A DNA stretch of 40,364 nucleotides. Origin: Actinomycetes bacterium. Its GTDB lineage: Bacteria > Actinomycetota > Actinomycetes > S36-B12. A model generated the notes under the pieces. That model had not been told where the DNA came from. It was given only the letters and a program-made list of their open reading frames with translations, and searched no databases. Shown here in pieces: positions 988-12,933 of the stretch (positions are counted from its first letter, which is position 1; every line of letters begins with the position of its first letter). The stretch is from positions 1 through 40,364 of the forward strand of contig BJGE01000011.1 in NCBI GenBank assembly GCA_014190275.1. Reading direction: 5' to 3'. Position numbers and translations under genes: made by a program.

Positions 988-2304
988 TCAGGCGGTTGGG
1001 CGCCCGAGGGCGCGGTAGGTCCAGCCGGCCGCCCGCCATAGCTGCGGGTCAAGGCGATTGCGGGCATCAATTAGATGCCGTGGCTTGGCGGTCGACGTGA
1101 TTTTCGCGGGGTCCAATTCGCGGTATTCGGGCCACTCGGTCAGATGCAGTACCAGCTCAGCACCGGCCAGCGCTTCGGTGACATCTTCGAGATAGGTCAA
1201 GGTCGGGTACACCCGAGCCGCATTGGCCAGCGCCTTCGGGTCATGCACTACAACATTGCCACCGGCGTTGTGGATTGCAGCGGCAACTGCGAGGGCCGGT
1301 GAATCGCGGACATCGTCACTATCGGGCTTAAATGCGGCGCCTAGTACGGTGACGTTCCTACCGGCAAAGGAACCATCGAGTGCGGCGAGTGCCAGGCTCA
1401 CGGTGTGGGCGCGCTGGCGCAGATTGATCTGATCGACCTCACGGAGGAATGCGAGGGCTTCCTCGGCGCCGAGCTCACCGGCCCGCGCCATGAAGGCGCG
1501 GATATCCTTTGGCAAGCACCCGCCGCCAAATCCCAAACCGGCCGCCAGGAATTGATTACCGATGCGCGGGTCGTAGCCAATTGCCTCGGCAAGTTGGGTG
1601 ATATCGGCGCCCGCGGCCTCGCAGACTTCAGCCATCGCGTTGATGAATGAGATCTTCGTAGCGAGGAATGAATTGGCGGCGACTTTGACAAGCTCCGCCG
1701 TTGGGAAGTCGGTTACGAGGAACGGCACGCCTTGATCGATAAGTGGTGCATAGACCTGACGCAGTAGTTCTTCGGCGTGCTGGCTTCGAACTCCCACCAC
1801 GAGTCGATCCGGGTGCAAGGTGTCGGTGACCGCGAAGCCCTCCCGGAGGAATTCCGGATTCCATGCCACTTCGGCAGCGGGTGCGGTCAGGGCCAACTGC
1901 TCCGCGAGCAGGGCCGCGGTGCCAACCGGCACGGTGGATTTACCGACCACCAAAGCCCCGGTGCGCAGATGCGGTGCCAAAGCTTGGATGGAGCCGAAGA
2001 CCTGGGAGAGGTCGGCGGCATTGGCACCGGACTGCTGCGGGGTACCGACGCAGATGAAGTGGATATCGGCGGCCGTGGCGGCCTCGGCCAGCGAGGTGGT
2101 AAATCGCAGGCGGCCGGCGGCAATATTGCGGTGAAGTACCTCGGGCAGGCCAGGCTCATAGAACGGAACCCGCCCACTTTGCAAAATCTCGACCTTGGCC
2201 GGATCGATATCGACCCCGATGACCTCAAAACCCAACTCGGCCATGCAGGCGGCGTGGGTGGCCCCTAAATAGCCGGTTCCTATGACAGACAGTCGCAAGG
2301 TCAC
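988..2304 (-). CDS. ugd: UDP-glucose 6-dehydrogenase
   Basis: 438 aa. Oxidises UDP-glucose twice with NAD to UDP-glucuronate, a donor for surface polysaccharides. Visible are the NAD-binding GTGYLG (residues 9-14), acidic VDID at the end of strand 2 (31-34), the GKSTVPVGT motif (121-129), Lys217 in the NSFLATK segment, and the catalytic Cys263 in GFGGGCLPKD. GTG 2304 was chosen because the protein must begin near LRLSVIGTGYLG and a TAnnnT hexamer sits exactly -12 to -7 from it, pointing to a leaderless message; TTG 2298 is an alternative. It is divergent from the glycosyltransferase operon and precedes the CoA-binding gene by 1 nt. Confidence 0.96.
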   Translation of the reverse strand: MTLRLSVIGTGYLGATHAACMAELGFEVIGVDIDPAKVEILQSGRVPFYEPGLPEVLHRNIAAGRLRFTTSLAEAATAADIHFICVGTPQQSGANAADLSQVFGSIQALAPHLRTGALVVGKSTVPVGTAALLAEQLALTAPAAEVAWNPEFLREGFAVTDTLHPDRLVVGVRSQHAEELLRQVYAPLIDQGVPFLVTDFPTAELVKVAANSFLATKISFINAMAEVCEAAGADITQLAEAIGYDPRIGNQFLAAGLGFGGGCLPKDIRAFMARAGELGAEEALAFLREVDQINLRQRAHTVSLALAALDGSFAGRNVTVLGAAFKPDSDDVRDSPALAVAAAIHNAGGNVVVHDPKALANAARVYPTLTYLEDVTEALAGAELVLHLTEWPEYRELDPAKITSTAKPRHLIDARNRLDPQLWRAAGWTYRALGRPTA

Positions 2305-2310
2305 CGGTGA

Positions 2311-2316
2311 AGACTA
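2311..2316 (-). promoter_or_regulatory. -10 box of ugd, leaderless
   Basis: On the minus strand the hexamer TAGTCT occupies -12 to -7 relative to GTG 2304, so transcription would begin on the start codon itself. No Shine-Dalgarno sequence lies at the usual distance. One of eight such cases in the window. Confidence 0.6.
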
Positions 2317-2329
2317 TCTGCCCTCTAAG

Positions 2330-3913
2330 GTGGCGTTCGTGGGCATTGCCGGGGTCCGAATCCGCACTCGCGCCAGCAGGTGGCGGGTCGAGGCGGCTGG
2401 CGTCGAACAGCTCCAGCAATTGTGTGTCACGAGTGTTGGCGCGGCGCGGGTGACCAATTTGGAGATCCGACTTCGCCACTGGTCCCCGCCCAAGGGTTGG
2501 GTGGGCGCCCCGGCGACCCCGGGACTGGTGGCGTATTTGATCGACCCGAGGGGTGCGGGTGCCCAGGTGGTGTTGGCTTGGCGCGAGCCGATTGACATCG
2601 CGCTGGCACTTGCCGCCGCGGTGCGATGCCTGCGACCAACACTTGGCCTAGGGGTCCGGCCCCAGCTCACCCTTGCCCCGGGGTTACCCGCGGCGGCGGC
2701 CGCACTCGCGGCCGAGGTGCACGACGTGGTCCGACCAGATGACACCGTGCATGCGCACTTGCGCAGATGCGACACCTTGGTCGTACCACGGCCTGACCTA
2801 CTACCGGAAATACCGCGGGCAACCACCGTGGTGGTTTCCGATGGCACTTGGCAAGTGGCTGGCACCTCGCATCCGGTGTGGGTCGACCCCAGCGTGCACC
2901 ACCCGATCGGTCGCAGGTCATCGGGAGTCACCGACGTGATTTCAGCCACCGTCACGGGCGGCATTCTTAAGTTACGTGGCACCTCACTCAAACTTGATAT
3001 CACCGGCGACCTGAAATCGGAGGATGTGAGCGCGCTAGTGTCGGTAGCGGCCGTGCGCACCGACTCCGATCTCGGCCCGAGGTGGATGAATCAGTTACAT
3101 GCTTGCGGAATTATTGTTAATGCGGAACAAGTTGATCTGCTGGAAGCGCAGGTAGCATCGGTTAGTGCTCGCCGCACGGCTCTACAAACCAGTACCCCAG
3201 CAGCCGCACTCGGGAGCTGGCCTTCGGTGAGTGCAGTTCTCCTTACCAATCGCGATACCTATCTAGGTCGGGCGATGAAGCAAATCGCGCGATTGGATTA
3301 CCCAAACCTGCAGGTGACCGTCGGGCTACATGGATTTGAGTTAGCCGCCAACCAAAGTGCTGAATTATCGGCCGTGGCCGGGCGGGAGATACATTTCAGT
3401 TCGGTGCCCAAGTCGGTGCCCTTCGGTGCTGCGATGCAGTTGATGAGTCAGCGCGCCGACGGTGAGCTGATTACCAAGATTGACGATGACGACTACTACG
3501 GTGCGGACCATATTTGGGATTTGGTGGTTGCACGCCTGTACTCCAGAGCCCAGGTAGTAGGCAAGGCGCTCGATTGGATTTACCTTGAGGGCGAGGACAC
3601 CACGGTATTTCGACCTACTTATGCCGCAGAAAAGTACTCCTTCTTCGTGGCCGGCGGCACTATCTTGATTTCCCGTGCCGATCTTGCCGATGTTGGTGGC
3701 TGGCGCCCGGTGGGGAAGTCAATCGATAGGGGATTACTGGAAAGTATCAAACAGTCAGGCGGCTTGATCTACCGCACCCACGGCCTGGGTTACCTTTATG
3801 TTCGGCATTTGGCGACCCACACCGCGGTGGTCGCCGATGAGCACTTCCTTACAAAAACTCAGCAAACCTGGATCGGGTTGCTGGAACATGAAGTGTTTGG
3901 TACCGCAGAGTGA
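2330..3913 (+). CDS. Glycosyltransferase, GT2-like C-terminal domain
   Basis: 527 aa from GTG 2330. The C-terminal part (about 290-520) is a GT-A/GT2-like domain: it opens with VSAVLLTNRDTYLGRAM, carries the metal-binding acidic run KIDDDDYYG (Asp385-388), then a VAGGTILISRADLADVGGW acceptor-side segment and SIDRGLL. The first ~285 residues match no domain I can name. No membrane segment is evident, so it should act in the cytosol on a lipid-linked or nucleotide acceptor. ATG 2282 would add 16 residues but overlaps the start of divergent ugd by 23 bp; I prefer GTG 2330, with moderate certainty. It is first in a four-gene run and overlaps the next gene (GTGA). Donor and acceptor are unknown. 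Confidence 0.85.
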   Translation: MAFVGIAGVRIRTRASRWRVEAAGVEQLQQLCVTSVGAARVTNLEIRLRHWSPPKGWVGAPATPGLVAYLIDPRGAGAQVVLAWREPIDIALALAAAVRCLRPTLGLGVRPQLTLAPGLPAAAAALAAEVHDVVRPDDTVHAHLRRCDTLVVPRPDLLPEIPRATTVVVSDGTWQVAGTSHPVWVDPSVHHPIGRRSSGVTDVISATVTGGILKLRGTSLKLDITGDLKSEDVSALVSVAAVRTDSDLGPRWMNQLHACGIIVNAEQVDLLEAQVASVSARRTALQTSTPAAALGSWPSVSAVLLTNRDTYLGRAMKQIARLDYPNLQVTVGLHGFELAANQSAELSAVAGREIHFSSVPKSVPFGAAMQLMSQRADGELITKIDDDDYYGADHIWDLVVARLYSRAQVVGKALDWIYLEGEDTTVFRPTYAAEKYSFFVAGGTILISRADLADVGGWRPVGKSIDRGLLESIKQSGGLIYRTHGLGYLYVRHLATHTAVVADEHFLTKTQQTWIGLLEHEVFGTAE

Positions 3914-4923
3914 ACTCATCTTCTCTGCACCTGCCGATGGTGTCGGTGATTATGCCCGTCATCAATGAGGAGCGACACCTGCAGCATTCGGTTGAACGAA
4001 TTCTTCAGCAGGACTATCCGGGAGGGCTTGAAGTAATAGTTGCGGTAGGTCCATCGCGTGATCGCACTGCTGAGGTTGCCGTGGATATCGCGGCCCGTGA
4101 TGCTCGGGTGCAGGTTGTCGAAAATCCGTCCGGCAAGACACCGTCGGGTTTAAATGCTGCGATTCAAATTGCGAGCGGGGAAGTAATCGTTCGGGTGGAT
4201 GGCCATGCGATGATCCCAAGTGACTACATCACGGTCGCGGTGGAAACCTTGCAAACTAGTGGTGCCGACAATGTCGGCGGCATGATGAATGCGGAGGGCA
4301 CCACGGATTTTGAGCAAGCTGCGGCGCGCGCGATGACCTCGCGCTTTGGCGTTGGGGGAGCAGCATTTCATGTCGGTGGTAGCGCTGGTCCGGCACTTAC
4401 CGTTTACCTGGGATGTTTTCGCCGCGAGGCACTTGATCGAGTCGGCGGCTACGACATCACGATGGAGCGGGCACAGGATTGGGAAATGAATCTGCGCATC
4501 AGGCAAACCGGTGGCACGGTCTGGTTCAACCCGGACTTGAAAGTCACCTATCGGCCCCGACCAACCCTTGGCGCATTGGCTAGGCAGTACCACGATTACG
4601 GGCGTTGGCGCCGAGAAGTCGCAACGCGCCATCCCGAAACCGTCTCACTGCGCTATCTCGCGGCTCCCATCGCCGTTGTCGCAGTGATCGTCGGCACGGT
4701 TCTTGGGCTCCTTGGGTTACTCCTTGGGGCGCCTTGGCTGGCGGTAATCGGATTTGCTGCACCGGCCGGCTATCTGGTGCTTGACCTGCTGGCAAGTTTA
4801 GTGGCCGCCGGCACCAAACCGCGGTTGACAATTGGGGCAGCGCTGGCACTGCCGATGGTTTACGCGACCATGCATGCATCCTGGGGCTTCGGATTTCTGC
4901 GCGGCGGGGTGGGTAAACCATGA
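3910..4923 (+). CDS. GT2 glycosyltransferase, ExoA-like
   Basis: 337 aa. The N-terminal GT2 domain shows VSVIMPVINEERHL, the IVRVDGHAMIP segment (DxH in place of the classic DxD, as seen in ExoA-type enzymes), GGSAGPALTVYLGCFRREALDRVGGYD, and the ERAQDWEMNLRIRQTGG segment containing the catalytic-base-like Asp. Two or three hydrophobic helices follow from about residue 245, so the enzyme is probably membrane-anchored with its active site in the cytosol. It starts with GTG overlapping the previous stop (GTGA) and ends overlapping the next start (ATGA), so translation of the run is coupled. Likely adds a sugar to a membrane-linked glycan; ExoA is a glucosyltransferase, but the donor here is not predictable. 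Confidence 0.9.
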   Translation: MNSSSLHLPMVSVIMPVINEERHLQHSVERILQQDYPGGLEVIVAVGPSRDRTAEVAVDIAARDARVQVVENPSGKTPSGLNAAIQIASGEVIVRVDGHAMIPSDYITVAVETLQTSGADNVGGMMNAEGTTDFEQAAARAMTSRFGVGGAAFHVGGSAGPALTVYLGCFRREALDRVGGYDITMERAQDWEMNLRIRQTGGTVWFNPDLKVTYRPRPTLGALARQYHDYGRWRREVATRHPETVSLRYLAAPIAVVAVIVGTVLGLLGLLLGAPWLAVIGFAAPAGYLVLDLLASLVAAGTKPRLTIGAALALPMVYATMHASWGFGFLRGGVGKP

Positions 4924-5888
4924 AACTCAGGTCGCTATTTGGCCGGCAAGCCGGCGCACCGTTGCGCTGGTCGGTCGTCACTGCGGCACCGAAGGGGGAA
5001 CCTGGCCTGCTCTGGGGTGATACCTGGTTTGCCACCGATTTAGTTGCTGCTCTGCAGCGACAGGGCCAGATCGCTGCCGTGGTGCCTCGAGGGGGTGCGC
5101 AATCTCCCGCGCGAGAACGCGATGACGTGGTGCTGGTATTGCGCGGCCTTCGTCGCGTGCATCCGGTGCCGAATGCACCTGCTGGCAGTCCAACAACTTG
5201 GATGATGTGGATTATTTCGCACCCTGAATTAATCGAGCCTGACGAGTTGGGCGATTACGACGCGGTATTCGCTGCCAGTCAATCGTGGGGCGATCCAAAA
5301 GTTGTTACCCCACTTTTGCAGGCTACCAATCCGCTGCGCTTCACCCCGCAGGCCGCTGCGCCCGATACCGGAGATGATGTGCTCTTCGTGGGATCCACCC
5401 GCGGCTCCTTCCGTCCCATCGTCAAGGATGCCATTTCGGTCGATGCGAATATCGCAATTTATGGAGTCGGCTGGGAGGCCTACTTGGAGCCCCAGCAAAT
5501 CCGCGCGGGATTCTTGCCCAATATCGAACTACCGGCGGCCTATGCGAGTGCCGGAGTGGTGCTCAATGACCACTGGCCGCAGATGGCTGCAGATGGATTT
5601 TTATCAAATCGACTTTTTGATGCGGTTGCTGCAGGTGCACGAGTGATTTCAGATCCGGCACAAGGGCTCGAGCGCATATTCGGTAATGGGGTGCGCATTT
5701 ATCAAGGCCCGGCGCAGTTGCGCGAATTGTTAAATAGGGACCGGGACGAAGTATTTGGTGACCGGCGAACTCGGCTGGCGGTAGCCAAAGAGGTAGCGCA
5801 ATCACATAGTTTTGATGTGCGCGCCCGGGTCCTAATTGAGCGGGCGCAAGCCCTGCGGTCGGTCGCACGTGCGGACGGCCATGTCTAA
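4920..5888 (+). CDS. Glycosyltransferase, Glyco_trans_1_2 (CgeB-like)
   Basis: 322 aa, GT-B fold with the CgeB-like C-terminal domain (PF13524 type). The C-terminal half has the hallmark run from LPNIELPAAYASAGVVLND through SNRLFDAVAAGARVISD, followed by a short end domain. The N-terminal half begins WSVVTAAPKGEPGLLWGDTW and contains TTWMMWIISHPELI. No signal peptide or membrane helix is seen. ATG overlaps the previous stop (ATGA), and the end overlaps the next start by 8 bp. Third enzyme of the glycosyltransferase run; the sugar is unknown. Confidence 0.85.
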   Translation: MKLRSLFGRQAGAPLRWSVVTAAPKGEPGLLWGDTWFATDLVAALQRQGQIAAVVPRGGAQSPARERDDVVLVLRGLRRVHPVPNAPAGSPTTWMMWIISHPELIEPDELGDYDAVFAASQSWGDPKVVTPLLQATNPLRFTPQAAAPDTGDDVLFVGSTRGSFRPIVKDAISVDANIAIYGVGWEAYLEPQQIRAGFLPNIELPAAYASAGVVLNDHWPQMAADGFLSNRLFDAVAAGARVISDPAQGLERIFGNGVRIYQGPAQLRELLNRDRDEVFGDRRTRLAVAKEVAQSHSFDVRARVLIERAQALRSVARADGHV

Positions 5889-7032
5889 GCCCCGAGTCGT
5901 GATTATCGCCAATAACATAGAGGAGCTCGGAGGGGCGCAGCGTATCGTTCACGTGCTAGGCCAGGGCCTAGCCGAACGCGGGTATCCGACACAGTTGGTT
6001 GGGGTTGCGCCACACCCCCCAAAGCACATTTATGTCGCGGCACCGGCATACCGGTCCACCACCTTGATGAGTGCCTGCTGGCCACCTGCCATCGCGCCAT
6101 CGGGACCCCTGGGCAAGTACCGCCCTGCAGTTCGCAGGCGGCGCAACACTAGATTTCGCCTTCACGCCGAAGCAGTCGACCAGCTGCGTCAGTTGCTATC
6201 GGCCGGGCCGCCCGGGGTTATCATCTGCGCCCAGCTGAAGGCGATGCCGTTATTGCAGGACGCAGGGATTGACGGCTGGCGGGTGATCGGTCAGTACCAC
6301 GCCTCCTTCGAAGCCGCTGCAAACAGCCGCGATCTGCGCCGAGCTCTGAGGAATTATCGAGACGTCAGTACCGTGGCACTGTTGACCGCGCAGGATGCGG
6401 CCCTGTTCGCCGATGCGGGGTTGAAGAACACGCGTTGGATCCCGAACCCACTTGCCTACTGGCCGGTTGACGCAGCGGACCTCGCCGGTCGGACTGTTAC
6501 CTACCTCGGGCGACTGTCCAAGGAGAAGGGCCCGGGCATCCTGCTGGCTGCCTGGAGCCAACTGGATCCACGCTTTGCCGATTGGAGCTTGCAGTTCGTT
6601 GGCGCGGGACCACTTGAGGGAGCACTTCGGGCGCAAGCCGCCGCCCTCGGACCCGCGGGCCGGCGCATTGCATTTCGGCCCCCGGTTGCGGATCCGGACC
6701 GGGTGCTGCTCGGCTCGGATGTGCTCGCCATGCCGTCGCTGACGGAGGGGTTCCCGCTGGTTTTGGCCGAGGCGATGGCCTGTGGGCTGCCGGTCGTGGC
6801 CGCTGACTGCTCACCTGGTGTGCGAGTCCTCGTGCATGATGGGGTAAATGGCTTGTTGGCGGCCCGTGGCGATGCCCGTGATTTTGCCGCAAAGCTGACG
6901 CTAGCGATGGACTCACCGCAGCTGCGCCAGGTACTCGGGTCGGCGGCCCGAGCTTCCGTTGAGTACCTCAAGGTCCCGAGGGTCTTGGATCAGTGGGAGT
7001 CGTTGATCGCTGAAGTCACAGATGCGCGTTAG
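5881..7032 (+). CDS. GT4 family glycosyltransferase
   Basis: 383 aa, GT-B fold. N-terminal acceptor domain starts VVIIANNIEELGGAQRIV, the GGA(Q/E)R motif of GT4. The C-terminal donor domain shows TVTYLGRLSKEKGPGILLAAW, LQFVGAGPLEGAL, and the EGFPLVLAEAMACGLPVVA segment with the two conserved Glu of the EX7E motif. ATG 5881 was chosen over an ATG at 5836 because the protein then begins at the family's first strand and overlaps the previous gene by 8 bp instead of 53. Fourth of the run. It meets the oppositely oriented cytidylyltransferase gene tail to tail with a 17-bp overlap. Confidence 0.93.
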   Translation: MSKPRVVIIANNIEELGGAQRIVHVLGQGLAERGYPTQLVGVAPHPPKHIYVAAPAYRSTTLMSACWPPAIAPSGPLGKYRPAVRRRRNTRFRLHAEAVDQLRQLLSAGPPGVIICAQLKAMPLLQDAGIDGWRVIGQYHASFEAAANSRDLRRALRNYRDVSTVALLTAQDAALFADAGLKNTRWIPNPLAYWPVDAADLAGRTVTYLGRLSKEKGPGILLAAWSQLDPRFADWSLQFVGAGPLEGALRAQAAALGPAGRRIAFRPPVADPDRVLLGSDVLAMPSLTEGFPLVLAEAMACGLPVVAADCSPGVRVLVHDGVNGLLAARGDARDFAAKLTLAMDSPQLRQVLGSAARASVEYLKVPRVLDQWESLIAEVTDAR

Positions 7033-7708
7033 CGCGCGATAAGTCATCCTCGAAGTCGACCTCGACAGCGAATAGGTCGGTGATATCGAGCGGGATGACT
7101 CTGGTGGCGTCCTGGGCGACGGTTATCTCAATCCCCCGCTCGAAATAATCCATGTCATCGCACGCGGCCAGGCCGCGAATCAGGTTTGCGCGGTCAGTAG
7201 CGCTGATGTAATTGATTCCGACGGCCTCGCCGAGGGCCTCGGTTACCTGTTTGGAGAGCAGCGCCACATACCCGTCCTGGTCGACGGTGTATTTGATCTC
7301 CTCTTCACCTACAACCGCGGTGTTGACGCAGATGAACGACTTGTCAGCCTCGATGAGCTCGCGGGCCCGGACGAGCACCTCGGCGTCGAAAACCACATCA
7401 CCATTCATCCAGAGCACCCCACCGGGTGGTGCCAAGCGCAGGGCCTTGAGCAGGCTGCGGTTGGTGTTGGTCTGGTCAAAGGACTCGTTGTAGATGTACG
7501 AGACATCCGGAAACGCCTCAAGGATCAGTTCGAGCTTGAAGCCGACCACGGTGGTAACTCGAAGCCCATCGCCGAAGACCTTGGTTAGGTTGTCAAGCTG
7601 CTGGCGCATGATGGTGCGCCCGTCGATGAGCGGAGTCAGCGGCTTCGGCCACGGCTTACCAAGCCTGGTGCCCATGCCGGCAGCCAAGATCACCGCATGT
7701 ACGGTCAT
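7016..7708 (-). CDS. NTP transferase, cytidylyltransferase-like
   Basis: 230 aa, a single nucleotidyltransferase domain without acetyltransferase repeats. The signature VILAAGMGTRLG...PKPLTPLIDG is at the N-terminus, then VGFKLELILEAF, a NESFDQTNTNRSLLKAL stretch like the TNxxSL region of LicC/inositol-phosphate cytidylyltransferases, and WMNGDVVFD with the metal-binding Asp. It probably activates a phosphorylated alcohol or sugar with CTP. The CDP-alcohol phosphotransferase encoded divergently 2 kb away is a plausible user of the product. ATG 7708 was chosen over ATG 7732 because it opens at the first beta strand (MTVHAVILAAG). The exact substrate (choline-P, glycerol-P, inositol-P or other) cannot be told. 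Confidence 0.85.
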   Translation of the reverse strand: MTVHAVILAAGMGTRLGKPWPKPLTPLIDGRTIMRQQLDNLTKVFGDGLRVTTVVGFKLELILEAFPDVSYIYNESFDQTNTNRSLLKALRLAPPGGVLWMNGDVVFDAEVLVRARELIEADKSFICVNTAVVGEEEIKYTVDQDGYVALLSKQVTEALGEAVGINYISATDRANLIRGLAACDDMDYFERGIEITVAQDATRVIPLDITDLFAVEVDFEDDLSRANAHL

Positions 7709-7796
7709 GCGGTGCCCCCGGCCACGGGGCACCTGCGAAAGAACCTTGAAACGCCCCTGATCGGGAGCATGACTGGGGATTTCCGCGGCACTGGCC

Positions 7797-7802
7797 TATC
7801 GT
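7797..7802 (+). promoter_or_regulatory. -10 box of ABC permease, leaderless
   Basis: TATCGT lies at -12 to -7 from GTG 7809, which predicts transcription starting at the start codon. It sits in the 100-bp gap between the divergent cytidylyltransferase gene and the exporter operon. Confidence 0.6.
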
Positions 7803-7808
7803 AACGGG

Positions 7809-8582
7809 GTGCGCATTATCTGGGAGCACCGTCAGGTGCTCCGCATGTTGGTCCTGCGGGATCTGCAAAAGCAGTACACCAAATTCCGGCTGGGCTACCT
7901 TTGGACCCTGCTCGAGCCGCTCGGCATGGCATTGGTGCTCTGGTTTGTCTTTACCCAATTACTCGGCGGGAAAAAACTGGGCCTGCAGCCGTACTTCCTG
8001 TTCATCGCGGTGGGGATCTTGCCCTGGTGGTGGTTTGCCCGAGGGGTCTCCGGGGCGGCAAGGACATTTCGTCGCAACCCGGTATTGCTGCGGATGAGTG
8101 TGCTGCCCACGAAACTTTGGGTCGTCCGCGTGGTTTTGGTCGCGATGGTCGAATACCTGCTGTCACTTCCGGTCATCTTGATCGCCATGCTCGCAACCGG
8201 CACGTTACCGGGGCCGCTAATCGCATTGTTCCCGGTCGCGATCATCGTGCAATTCTTCTTGATGTACGGCCTTGCCATGTTGATTGCCGCTGGTTCCGCC
8301 GTCATTCCTGACCTGGCCCGCATTGTGCGAATCGTGCTGCGCGCGACTTTCTACCTATCGCCGGTTTTGTATTCGATCGCCAACATCCCCGCGGGAGCGC
8401 AGGTAATAGCCGCGGTGAATCCACTGGTTGGTATTTTGGGCCTGTATCGAATCGGGTTTTGGCCAACCGAAATCGATTCGCTCCCGCATTACGGTATTTC
8501 CCTAGGCGTGACGGCCGTTATCTTCATCTCGGGCTCGGTGGTCTTCCAGCGGCTCGAAGGCCGCATTTTGAAGGAGGGCTGA
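7809..8582 (+). CDS. ABC-2 type polysaccharide exporter permease (Wzm-like)
   Basis: 257 aa, six predicted hydrophobic segments, the normal size for Wzm/TagG/KpsM permeases. The N-terminal amphipathic part VLRDLQKQYTKFRLGYLW followed by TLLEPLGMALVLWFVFTQLLG is typical of ABC2_membrane proteins of O-antigen and teichoic-acid exporters. ILPWWWFARGVSGAARTFRRNPVLL and the YLSPVLYSIANIP stretch are also family-like. Start GTG 7809 is supported by a TAnnnT box at the leaderless position. The partner ATPase gene starts 1 nt after the stop. It likely carries a lipid-linked glycan across the membrane. Confidence 0.92.
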   Translation: MRIIWEHRQVLRMLVLRDLQKQYTKFRLGYLWTLLEPLGMALVLWFVFTQLLGGKKLGLQPYFLFIAVGILPWWWFARGVSGAARTFRRNPVLLRMSVLPTKLWVVRVVLVAMVEYLLSLPVILIAMLATGTLPGPLIALFPVAIIVQFFLMYGLAMLIAAGSAVIPDLARIVRIVLRATFYLSPVLYSIANIPAGAQVIAAVNPLVGILGLYRIGFWPTEIDSLPHYGISLGVTAVIFISGSVVFQRLEGRILKEG

Positions 8583-8583
8583 G

Positions 8584-9384
8584 ATGGCCCGTCAGCGGTT
8601 GGACCCGGGTCTGGACGCAATGCTGCTTTTCACCGATGTGGGCATCAACATCGCAAAGGGTAGGCGCCGACAAGGTGGTGGTCGGCGGCACCGGTTGCGC
8701 AGATTTGTGGGGGAACAAAGCCGGACGGGGTCATGGGTGCTGCGCGGGGTAACTACGCAAATTGCGGCGGGTGAGTCGGTGGCGGTGTTGGGGTTGAAGA
8801 ACTCCGGTCGTACCGAGTTCTTGCGGCTGGCGGCGGGCACTTTGATTGCGGATGAGGGTGTGGTGCGGCGACGTGCACCAGTCTTGCCCATGATCGACCT
8901 GGGCCGCGCATTTGATCGCGGGTTCACGGTGCGGCAGAACATCTACCTGCTCGGCGGGCTCTTGGGCATGACCCCCGGCAAGGTAGAAGTTGCCTTGCCA
9001 GAAATCGTCGAGACCGCGAGGCTCGCACCGAATATCGATAAGTACCTGCGCGGTGCCTCGGCTTTGACCCGGCAGAAGCTGGCTTGGAGCATCGCAATGG
9101 CAACCAAGGCACCGGTGGTCGCGGCTGACGAGATGCTAGTTGTTGGCGATGTGGAATCCCGAAAGCGCTGCCTGGCACAGGTGGAGAGACTCAAGGCGGC
9201 CGGAACCACCTTCTTGGTGTCTACCGACGTACCCCGCAAATTCGAGGGGTTCTTCGATCGCGCGATCGTTTTGCACAATGGCGGAGTCGTCGCTGATGGC
9301 AAAATGGAGGATGGTCTGGCGCTCCTGCGCGAACTTCGCCTGGCGAGCACCGCCGCAGGCACTGAAAAGGATGAAACCAAGTGA
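8584..9384 (+). CDS. Wzt/TagH-like ABC ATPase, degenerate motifs
   Basis: 266 aa. Overall layout matches the Wzt/TagH ATPase: VLRGVTTQIAAGESVAVLG, then a P-loop, then VVAADEMLVVGD and a C-terminal VADGKMED. Key residues are changed. The P-loop reads GLKNSGRT (70-77) with Arg76 where Lys is expected, the signature SSGM/LSGGQ is replaced by ALTRQK (160-165), and the switch His is Thr214 (VSTD instead of VSHD). Walker B Asp182-Glu183 and the following D-loop GD are kept. The reading frame is intact, so this is not a simple pseudogene. It probably partners the upstream permease; whether it hydrolyses ATP is doubtful. It lacks the extra C-terminal sugar-binding domain of some Wzt proteins. The next gene overlaps (GTGA). 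Confidence 0.85.
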   Translation: MARQRLDPGLDAMLLFTDVGINIAKGRRRQGGGRRHRLRRFVGEQSRTGSWVLRGVTTQIAAGESVAVLGLKNSGRTEFLRLAAGTLIADEGVVRRRAPVLPMIDLGRAFDRGFTVRQNIYLLGGLLGMTPGKVEVALPEIVETARLAPNIDKYLRGASALTRQKLAWSIAMATKAPVVAADEMLVVGDVESRKRCLAQVERLKAAGTTFLVSTDVPRKFEGFFDRAIVLHNGGVVADGKMEDGLALLRELRLASTAAGTEKDETK

Positions 9385-10178
9385 TTGAGCGGCCAATACG
9401 ACCGACAGTGGCTCAGGTCCGTGAAGTTGGCCAACCGCCCTCGGTGCGTGGTCGAGCCAATTCCGAGCATTGGGTTGCCGATGTTTATTTGCGATCCATT
9501 TCACCGCATCTGACGAGATTGCTACTTCGAACCTCGATCAGCGCCAACCAGGTGACCTGGCTGATGATCGCATCGGGTGCGTCCGCCGCATTTGTGCTCT
9601 TGATACCGGGGTTACCCGGTGCCGTGCTCGCCGTGTTTATGGGGCAGTTGCAGATGCTCTGGGATTGTTGTGATGGTGAAGTCGCACGTTGGCGCCAGAC
9701 GTCATCTCCCAAGGGAGTGTTCCTTGATCGAGTTGGGCATTACACCACCGAGGGTCTTATCCCAATTGCGTTGGGGCTACGTGCCGCTGGATTTCCGAAC
9801 CCGGGCTGGCTGGACAGCATTTGGCCGCTATTGGGGGCACTCCTAGCGGTGATCATCCTCTACAACAAAGCACTTAATGACATGGTGCACGTTTCGCGCG
9901 CCTATAACAATATGCCTAGACTCGAAGACAAGGCGACCGTTGGCATCCCGCAAAGTAGTGGCCTGCGGAGCTTGAGATCATTCGCGCGGTTCTTTCCGTT
10001 TCAGCGCGCGTACCACTCGGTTGAGTTGACGATCTTGGCCTTAATCGCTGCAATTGTCGATGTCTTCGCGGGCGGACTTGAAGCCACCCGGGTACTGGTG
10101 GCCGCGCTGGTCGTCTTGGGCCTAGTGACAATTGTCGGCCACCTGCTTTCGATTCTGTCATCGAGCAAGTTGAAGTAA
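9381..10178 (+). CDS. CDP-alcohol phosphotransferase family membrane protein
   Basis: 265 aa, about five to six membrane segments, of the CDP-alcohol phosphatidyltransferase family (PF01066). The motif is readable: Asp95, Asp98-Gly99, Ala102-Arg103, then Gly112 after eight residues and Asp116. The eighth conserved position, normally the catalytic-base Asp, is His120. Such enzymes transfer a phospho-alcohol from a CDP-activated donor to a hydroxyl acceptor. It starts with GTG overlapping the ATPase stop, and its co-transcription with a polysaccharide exporter favours a role in a phosphate-bearing surface polymer over bulk phospholipid synthesis. That role is inference. Confidence 0.88.
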   Translation: MIERPIRPTVAQVREVGQPPSVRGRANSEHWVADVYLRSISPHLTRLLLRTSISANQVTWLMIASGASAAFVLLIPGLPGAVLAVFMGQLQMLWDCCDGEVARWRQTSSPKGVFLDRVGHYTTEGLIPIALGLRAAGFPNPGWLDSIWPLLGALLAVIILYNKALNDMVHVSRAYNNMPRLEDKATVGIPQSSGLRSLRSFARFFPFQRAYHSVELTILALIAAIVDVFAGGLEATRVLVAALVVLGLVTIVGHLLSILSSSKLK

Positions 10179-10181
10179 GAC

Positions 10182-11063
10182 GTGCCCATCAATTCGGTCG
10201 AGGCGCCGCACTTCGCTGTGGTGATATTAACGATGGGCCAGCGGCCAGCGGACTTGCGCCGTGCTATTGACTCCGTACTTGCTCAGCGAGGCGTAAGTGT
10301 CGACGTAGTTGTAGTCGGTAATGGTTGGCAGCCGGTTGATCTGCCTGTCGGCGTTAAGGCTTGCCACCTTCGGGAAAACTTGGGTATCCCGGCCGGCCGC
10401 AATGCGGGTGTGTCTTTGGTGTCCGGCCAGTTACTGTTTTTCCTAGATGATGACGCATCCCTTCCGGACCAAATGTTCTTGCAAGTAGTAGCCAATCGCT
10501 TTGCGGCTGACGTTAACCTCGGCTTGATCCAGCCTCGGGTGGTAGACCCAAACGGGTTACCGGCCCCGCGTCGGTGGGTGCCACGACTTCGGGTCGGTGA
10601 TCCGGGTGAGCCAAGTCCAGCGACCGCACTTTGGGAGGGTGCGGTTGCTATTAGGCGATCACTGTTCGAGGTAATAGGGGGTTGGCCCGCCGATTTCTTC
10701 TACGCCCATGAAGGCATTGACCTGGTATGGCGGGTTTGGGATGAGGGCTTTGTGCCGTGGTACGCCGCGGACTTAATCGTTAATCACCCGGTCATTGATC
10801 CAGCACGGCACGAGGTGTATTACCGAATGAATGCGCGCAACCGCGTTTGGTTGGCGCGGCGCAACCTGCCGGTCGTGCTCGAGCCGCTTTATATCGGCAC
10901 CTGGGTGGGTTTGACGGTAGCGCGAGTCCACGACCGAGCTGCCCTTAAATCCTGGTTCGGGGGTTTACGCGAAGGGCTTCGGGTTAGGCCGGCCGGGCGC
11001 CGGCCGATGAAATGGCGCACCGTCTGGGCCATGACCAAAGCCGGGCGCCCCCCGGTGATTTAA
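10182..11063 (+). CDS. GT2 family glycosyltransferase
   Basis: 293 aa, GT2 domain from the N-terminus: FAVVILTMGQRPADLRRAI, VVVVGNGWQ, the LRENLGIPAGRNAGV segment, and the DxD-type LFFLDDDASL metal site near residue 90. LWEGAVAIRRSLFEVIGGWP and FYAHEGIDLVWRVWD complete the family pattern. The end is basic and may be membrane-associated; a weak hydrophobic stretch (LEPLYIGTWVGLTVA) lies near residue 230. The GTG start is 3 nt after the previous stop, so it belongs to the exporter operon. The GC-rich self-complementary end of the gene (11041-11055) may act in termination. Confidence 0.9.
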   Translation: MPINSVEAPHFAVVILTMGQRPADLRRAIDSVLAQRGVSVDVVVVGNGWQPVDLPVGVKACHLRENLGIPAGRNAGVSLVSGQLLFFLDDDASLPDQMFLQVVANRFAADVNLGLIQPRVVDPNGLPAPRRWVPRLRVGDPGEPSPATALWEGAVAIRRSLFEVIGGWPADFFYAHEGIDLVWRVWDEGFVPWYAADLIVNHPVIDPARHEVYYRMNARNRVWLARRNLPVVLEPLYIGTWVGLTVARVHDRAALKSWFGGLREGLRVRPAGRRPMKWRTVWAMTKAGRPPVI

Positions 11064-11514: not shown

Positions 11515-12933
11515 CTACTGGGCGCAGAAGGATTCATCCGCTGTATTGATATTAGCGGTCCTATCCTCGGCGATATCTGATACCTCAACTGGCATGATCG
11601 CAGTGAAATCGCTGCCGATAATCAACGTCATGGTCTGACCTGATTTCTTAACGGATTCACCCGTTGCTTCAGCGGCAGCGATAAGAGTTTTCGCGGATAC
11701 ATCCCAGCGTGGGTCGTACTGCACCGTGGTGGTTGTCACGGCACTTGAACCGGCATTTGCGACCTCGCCGATCCTGAAGCCTTGCGCACTTAGTTGCTTA
11801 GCAACCTTCTTCGCCATGCCCTTGGTTGCTGTGCCGTTTAGAACATTGACACGGATCATCTCGGGTCGCACCTTAAGAATGACTTCACCGGAGCCACCAC
11901 TTGGTGGCCACGCGGTGTCATTGGCTATGGCATCCCAGATGGGAGCGCCCTTCTTTTTGCTGGGCAGCACGGTCGCCCCATCGCCACTTGGATACCAAGG
12001 CATGGTCACGAAGGTAATGCTGTTGGGTTTTAGGTCCTTCATACTTAGTGCTAGGTCCTGTAAATTTTGAATATCGGCCAGTTGCGGGTCAGCCGTGAGC
12101 GATTGGGTTGCCGCATCAAGGATGCTGAGCATGGTGGCCGGATTTAGCAATGTGCCACTTGATAGGACCGAGCGCACCAGTGACGACAAGAAGGCCTGTT
12201 GGCGGCGGATTCGTGAGGTATCGGAGCCATCGCCGAGGGTTTTGCGCGCCCGCACGAAGGCCAAGGCTTCTTCGCCCTGCACGATGTGCTTGCCCTTGCT
12301 TAGAACCAGTCCGCTCAGCGGATCGTTGACCGCTTCACTGACACAAATCTCGACACCGCCCACTGCATCGACTATGCGCTTGAAGCCACCAAAGTCAACA
12401 AGCATGAAATTGTTTAACGCAAGCCCGGTTAAATCCTGGACGGCTTTGATGGTGCAGCCTGGGCCGCCCAATTGAATGGCTTCATTGAAGCGGCCTTGGT
12501 AGCCGCCCCGGGTTTGGCCGTCCTTCTTGCATTTAGGCAAGGTGATCAAGGTATCGCGCGGAATGCTCACGGCGATCGCCGACTTTCGATCGGCACTTAC
12601 ATGCAACAAGATGGTGGTGTCAGATCGCTGCCCGGTTATTTCACTTGCTTTGCCGTACCCGCGATTGTCCTTGCCCGCCCGGGTGTCGCTGCCCATGAGC
12701 AGCACATTTAAGGGTGCGTAGGTGCCCGTGACTTCGTCGACCGCTGCAATGGGTGCCGGGGCCTGGCTGGGGGACCCGACTTCCTCGGAGATATCCACCG
12801 CCGTGATATTGCCTTCAAGGCGCCCCAGCAGCAGATTCACCCCCGCGCCAACCAAGGTGGCCCCCAAAATGGCGATCGCCAACACCATTGTCAGGACGCG
12901 GGTCCATCGGCCGGGGCGGGCAGCCTGCGACAT
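11515..12933 (-). CDS. LytR-CpsA-Psr (LCP) family protein
   Basis: 472 aa. One N-terminal membrane helix (about 13-37), then an extracellular LCP domain and a C-terminal LytR_C domain (about 355-440, RVNVLNGTATKGMAKKVAKQL). LCP hallmarks are NVLLMGSDTR (76-85), GQRSDTTILLHV with conserved Arg103 and Asp105, SIPRDT (123-128) and the FVRARKTLGDGSDTSRIRRQQ segment cut by family-conserved Arg residues. LCP enzymes move polyprenyl-phosphate-linked glycopolymers onto peptidoglycan, so this may be the ligase for the polymer made upstream. The ATG is preceded by GGAAGG inside an 11-nt palindrome. It is divergent from the SpoIID-like gene. No Cys or lipobox is seen at the N-terminus. Confidence 0.95.
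   Translation of the reverse strand: MSQAARPGRWTRVLTMVLAIAILGATLVGAGVNLLLGRLEGNITAVDISEEVGSPSQAPAPIAAVDEVTGTYAPLNVLLMGSDTRAGKDNRGYGKASEITGQRSDTTILLHVSADRKSAIAVSIPRDTLITLPKCKKDGQTRGGYQGRFNEAIQLGGPGCTIKAVQDLTGLALNNFMLVDFGGFKRIVDAVGGVEICVSEAVNDPLSGLVLSKGKHIVQGEEALAFVRARKTLGDGSDTSRIRRQQAFLSSLVRSVLSSGTLLNPATMLSILDAATQSLTADPQLADIQNLQDLALSMKDLKPNSITFVTMPWYPSGDGATVLPSKKKGAPIWDAIANDTAWPPSGGSGEVILKVRPEMIRVNVLNGTATKGMAKKVAKQLSAQGFRIGEVANAGSSAVTTTTVQYDPRWDVSAKTLIAAAEATGESVKKSGQTMTLIIGSDFTAIMPVEVSDIAEDRTANINTADESFCAQ

Follow-up and report, generated by a model that had tools for sequence, protein, structure and literature searches.

A Wzt-type subunit without ATPase motifs is conserved beside a Wzm-type permease in a clade of mostly uncultured actinobacteria

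ATP-binding cassette (ABC) exporters are defined by ATP-driven nucleotide-binding domains (NBDs) and, to our knowledge, the known degenerate ABC exporters keep at least one complete ATP site. The closest described relatives of the gene pair analyzed here are the type V exporters Wzm/Wzt and TarG/TarH (TagG/TagH), exemplified by A. aeolicus WzmWzt (8dne/6m96) and S. aureus TarGH (9cfl). The pair lies in a stretch of 40,364 nucleotides (hereafter the window; contig BJGE01000011.1, positions 1 to 40,364, assembly GCA_014190275.1) from an Actinomycetes bacterium of the S36-B12 lineage, and consists of a permease gene followed by an NBD gene at 8584-9384 (+). It resembles these exporters in both folds, in its operon and in its glycopolymer/LytR-CpsA-Psr (LCP) context. 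It differs from them in that the Walker A Lys, the signature and the switch His are absent from the NBD, the catalytic Glu is gone in most members, and the presumed coupling-helix Arg of the permease is lost. Because, judged by its Walker A, signature and switch His positions, it does not qualify as a working Wzt ATPase, we call the NBD protein pseudo-Wzt. Sequence comparison suggests that it is probably the pseudo-ATPase component of an exporter of the Wzm/Wzt (TarG/TarH) type that handles a teichoic-acid-like wall glycopolymer.

Catalytic residues have likewise been lost naturally in TAP, TM287/288 and ABCG5/G8, including a Walker A Lys to Arg change in ABCG5/G8 (PMC7756269), but these transporters retain one complete composite site, whereas in the present case both halves are missing from the one NBD gene and no site could form. 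Transport through an ABC membrane domain without ATP has been described for LmrA-MD (PMC2704374), but this is an engineered multidrug exporter construct without an NBD, whereas the present case is a type V system found in nature, with a presumably inactive NBD retained. A search of the open literature, which takes in only a minority of subscription journals, turned up no earlier example of an ABC exporter with a pseudo-ATPase.

The frame of the pseudo-Wzt gene is intact, as stated in an initial annotation of this DNA. It encodes 266 aa from an ATG start, and a strong Shine-Dalgarno sequence, AAGGAGG, lies upstream (8571-8577, +). The gene forms an operon with the Wzm/TarG permease gene: it starts 1 bp past the permease stop, and at its other end the stop codon shares bases with the GTG that opens a CDP-alcohol phosphatidyltransferase gene. 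The protein had no match in Pfam, ABC_tran included, at E≤1e-3; the PF00005 gathering score was not reached, and five of the six other degenerate members tested also gave no match at 1e-3, whereas a canonical cognate scored 73.9 bits. It is nevertheless recognized by the NCBIfam TagH/Wzt models (teichoic acid export ATPase model, E 1e-17), its PDB sequence match is A. aeolicus Wzt (E 8e-27), and the best PDB structural matches of its AlphaFold2 model (pLDDT 87.7) are A. aeolicus WzmWzt (TMq 0.79). Together these identify it as a predicted Wzt-type NBD; its fold, operon and context place it in the Wzt/TagH group, and AlphaFold2 with Foldseek predicts a Wzt fold in both degenerate families.

At the Walker A position (8791-8814, +) the protein reads G70-L-K-N-S-G-R76-T77 (GLKNSGRT) and fails the pattern GxxGxGK[ST], with Arg76 (codon 8809-8811) in place of Lys as first noted. 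The signature position, residues 159-165 (9058-9078, +), holds SALTRQK instead of SSGM and matches neither [YF]SSGM nor LSGGQ. Walker B is kept (Asp182-Glu183; 9127-9132, +), as is a D-loop, VVGD. The switch His is indeed missing at T214-D215 (9223-9228, +), but the residue named in its place, Thr214, is correct by motif only: when aligned without gaps, D215 sits in the His column and T214 in the Ser column before it. Degenerate members also carry a basic N-terminal stretch, in the window's family RRxGGGRRxRLRRxAGE (residues 26-45 of the pseudo-Wzt; compare L069), whose conservation is 0.59 in that family and 0.29 in canonical cognates, and many have a charged, often acidic C-terminal tail.

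To follow the loss in relatives, we anchored the comparison on the permease, whose sequence does not depend on the NBD loss, and read the cognate NBD beside it in 51 genomes of the window's family and 9 genomes of two related families. The sample also took in 62 canonical cognates drawn from 15 further families in the class, of which two belong to the same order. The Walker A Lys and Ser, the signature Gly, the Walker B Asp and Glu and the switch His are invariant in all 62 canonical cognates. In the window's family, by comparison, the Walker A Lys occurs in 0/51 members, a difference beyond chance, the signature in 0/51 and the switch His in 3/51; the Walker B Glu is kept in only 8/51, with Q, G, R or K in 42/51, while the Asp is often kept. 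R76 proved common (41/51) rather than strictly conserved. The cognate NBDs of the two related families are all degenerate (9/9), mostly beyond recognition. What is conserved is the absence of the catalytic set and not particular replacement residues. In a quick tree search on the permeases, a single branch (SH-aLRT 98) separated the degenerate rows from the others, requiring one change, which points to a loss that is old and probably single. Homologues with normal motifs in the same context, which the initial annotation had named as a refutation, do exist, but they occur in sister families and elsewhere in the class and not within the clade itself; the loss is therefore derived and ancient, not an error. 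No degenerate Wzt was found in the phylum outside this clade, whose members are mostly uncultured actinobacteria, the 29 best matches read being all canonical, and a search for related loci returned only close relatives and one weak unrelated match. Two records titled as Bifidobacterium breve metagenome-assembled genomes (MAGs; L034 and L036) carry the cluster at 72-78% identity, and their titles look wrong.

The pseudo-Wzt is under purifying selection rather than decaying freely. Within the genus, its dN/dS (NG86) ranges from 0.07 to 0.15, which is somewhat above the adjoining genes (0.02-0.09 for the permease) and far below 1. Constraint has shifted: the NBD is more conserved than the permease in 99% of 1890 canonical cognate pairs and in 0% of 1682 degenerate pairs. 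Within the window's family, segment conservation is lowest at Walker A (0.28). Two segments exceed the family mean of 0.47, namely the Q-loop/gate segment (0.57) and the helix that follows Walker A (0.74). This pattern fits a protein that would need its fold and its docking on the permease, but not ATP binding.

The partner gene (7809-8582, +) encodes a Wzm/TarG-type ABC-2 permease of 257 aa, a conserved partner of the pseudo-Wzt. The pairing is as first described, but the permease is not quite as ordinary as it had seemed. Thr101 (8109-8111, +), next to P100 and between membrane helices 2 and 3, stands in a column that is Arg in 62/62 canonical cognate permeases. We take the coupling helix of TarG-like transporters to lie at this P100/Thr101 region, where the presumed coupling-helix Arg has been lost.

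The occupancy of the exporter slot bears on function. The permease/pseudo-Wzt pair is present in 51 of the 64 family genomes that carry the cluster marker, compared with 1 of the 21 without it. In G047, of the same order, a canonical Wzm/Wzt fills the same cluster slot after the nucleotidyltransferase, and G041 has its canonical pair within the cluster, next to the UDP-glucose dehydrogenase. Two genomes, G016 and G028, cleanly lack the pair in the slot, with 21 and 52 bp between the flanking genes, and both carry a canonical exporter elsewhere. A canonical Wzt of another lineage is encoded elsewhere in the genome in G016 and in all seven cluster-bearing genomes of genus g14. Overall, a canonical exporter elsewhere occurs in 8/13 cluster genomes without the pair and in 1/51 with it (Fisher p 2e-6, a value that ignores ancestry and reflects about two lineages); the other 5/13 are 87% complete or less. 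The pair seems to be exchangeable for an active system.

We favour a pseudo-ATPase exporter because no composite site could be restored and because, in eleven genomes (81-100% complete), two queries for a partner Wzt in trans detected no other Wzt-like NBD. G017, G022, G031, G032, G037 and G050, each at least 95% complete, are among the eleven, and the next best NBDs in all of them belong to other ABC classes, seen in controls too. The cluster holds no second NBD that would leave one complete composite site, the mark of a heterodimeric exporter with one degenerate site. Since the motor subunit has lost all the parts that burn ATP, the exporter apparently works without a motor of its own. More tentatively, we propose as a serious possibility that evolution has produced here an ABC-type exporter independent of ATP, in which a Wzm channel bearing a pseudo-ATPase exports a wall glycopolymer, powered by polymer synthesis and ligation or by ion-motive force. 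The pseudo-Wzt would still dock on the permease and would hold or gate the export channel without binding or hydrolyzing ATP. The lipid-linked polymer would be driven otherwise, most simply pushed by chain synthesis in the cytoplasm and, as in a ratchet, pulled outside by LCP-mediated ligation, with a possible contribution from ion-motive force. Such export is physically reasonable, since nucleotide-free WzmWzt can form a channel (PMC9445017) and the LmrA membrane domain transports without an NBD (PMC2704374). Several points weigh against this explanation: we infer the transport role from context and replacement, with the replacing pair at another locus and few events; MAGs are incomplete, and a partner NBD may go unseen; loss of the presumed coupling-helix Arg as well may mean that coupling was abolished rather than rewired; and the energy source, be it synthesis, ligation or ion-motive force, is also inferred. 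The observation in the initial annotation is confirmed and its interpretation partly supported: the idea of a non-canonical transporter or scaffold is borne out and now extends far beyond one genome (51/51 and 9/9 degenerate).

The strongest alternative, though we consider it unlikely, is that the pair no longer transports and serves instead to scaffold or regulate the complex that makes the glycopolymer, with a different flippase exporting the polymer. The joint loss of the ATP site and the presumed coupling-helix Arg would suit it, as would the weak matches to PF01943 (MOP-type flippase) in many family genomes. PF01943 has no match in G046, G057 and G058, however; the whole permease is conserved, in degenerate families more than the NBD, and a canonical exporter fills the slot in a sister family.

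It is less probable still that the pseudo-Wzt heterodimerizes with a canonical NBD encoded elsewhere to give one active ATP site, as in TAP and TM287/288. Many degenerate NBDs work with active partners (PMC7756269), and a search of the window's genome for a second Wzt, as the initial annotation had proposed, revealed a canonical one on another contig (C68). That Wzt already has its own permease. In composite ATP sites, moreover, one site needs the Walker A of a given subunit and the other its signature (PMC7756269); because both are lost from the same polypeptide here, a normal partner would not restore an ATP site, and the eleven genomes without any canonical Wzt further disfavour the pairing. 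A second, canonical Wzm/Wzt pair in the window's genome (L040, 6093-8131) has a Wzt with a C-terminal extension and lies in another glycosyltransferase cluster.

We give little credence to a remodelled site, for instance with Arg for Lys, that still binds a nucleotide or other ligand and acts as a ligand-gated switch: R76 recurs in 41/51 family members and the Walker B Asp often persists, but the P-loop is the least conserved segment and is unrecognizable in the second degenerate family. A decaying pseudogene or a sequencing or assembly error, which the missing catalytic residues could suggest, is rejected as next to impossible given an intact frame in about 60 genomes, a good ribosome-binding site and a dN/dS of 0.07-0.15.

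The surrounding genes point to a teichoic-acid-like wall-glycopolymer cluster. It is bounded by a UDP-glucose/GDP-mannose dehydrogenase gene (988-2304, -), followed by four genes (2282-7032, +) for a 543 aa unknown protein, a family 2 glycosyltransferase (GT2), a further glycosyltransferase and a GT1, and then by a MobA-like nucleotidyltransferase gene flanking the exporter slot (7016-7732, -). Beyond the pair lie the genes for the CDP-alcohol phosphatidyltransferase (9381-10178, +), another family 2 glycosyltransferase (10182-11063, +) and an LCP glycopolymer ligase (11515-12933, -). Relatives' clusters also encode a CDP-glycerol glycerophosphotransferase-like protein and a second CDP-alcohol transferase. 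The conserved 543 aa protein (2282-3913) matches nothing in Pfam or NCBIfam, and no membrane helix is predicted in it. Compared with L047 and L050, the window's cluster (at 7732-7809 and 9381) lacks three genes common around the exporter in relatives, encoding a TagF-like glycerophosphotransferase, a sulfotransferase-like protein and a bifunctional CDP-alcohol transferase with DUF5941, while the pair remains.

Annotation of these bacteria calls for caution: the label ABC ATPase can be incorrect, and it can also be missed for want of a Pfam hit. A clade whose sole NBD is presumably inactive offers a natural test of the roles of NBDs besides hydrolysis, and of whether the passage of long anionic polymers through a Wzm-type channel requires ATP.
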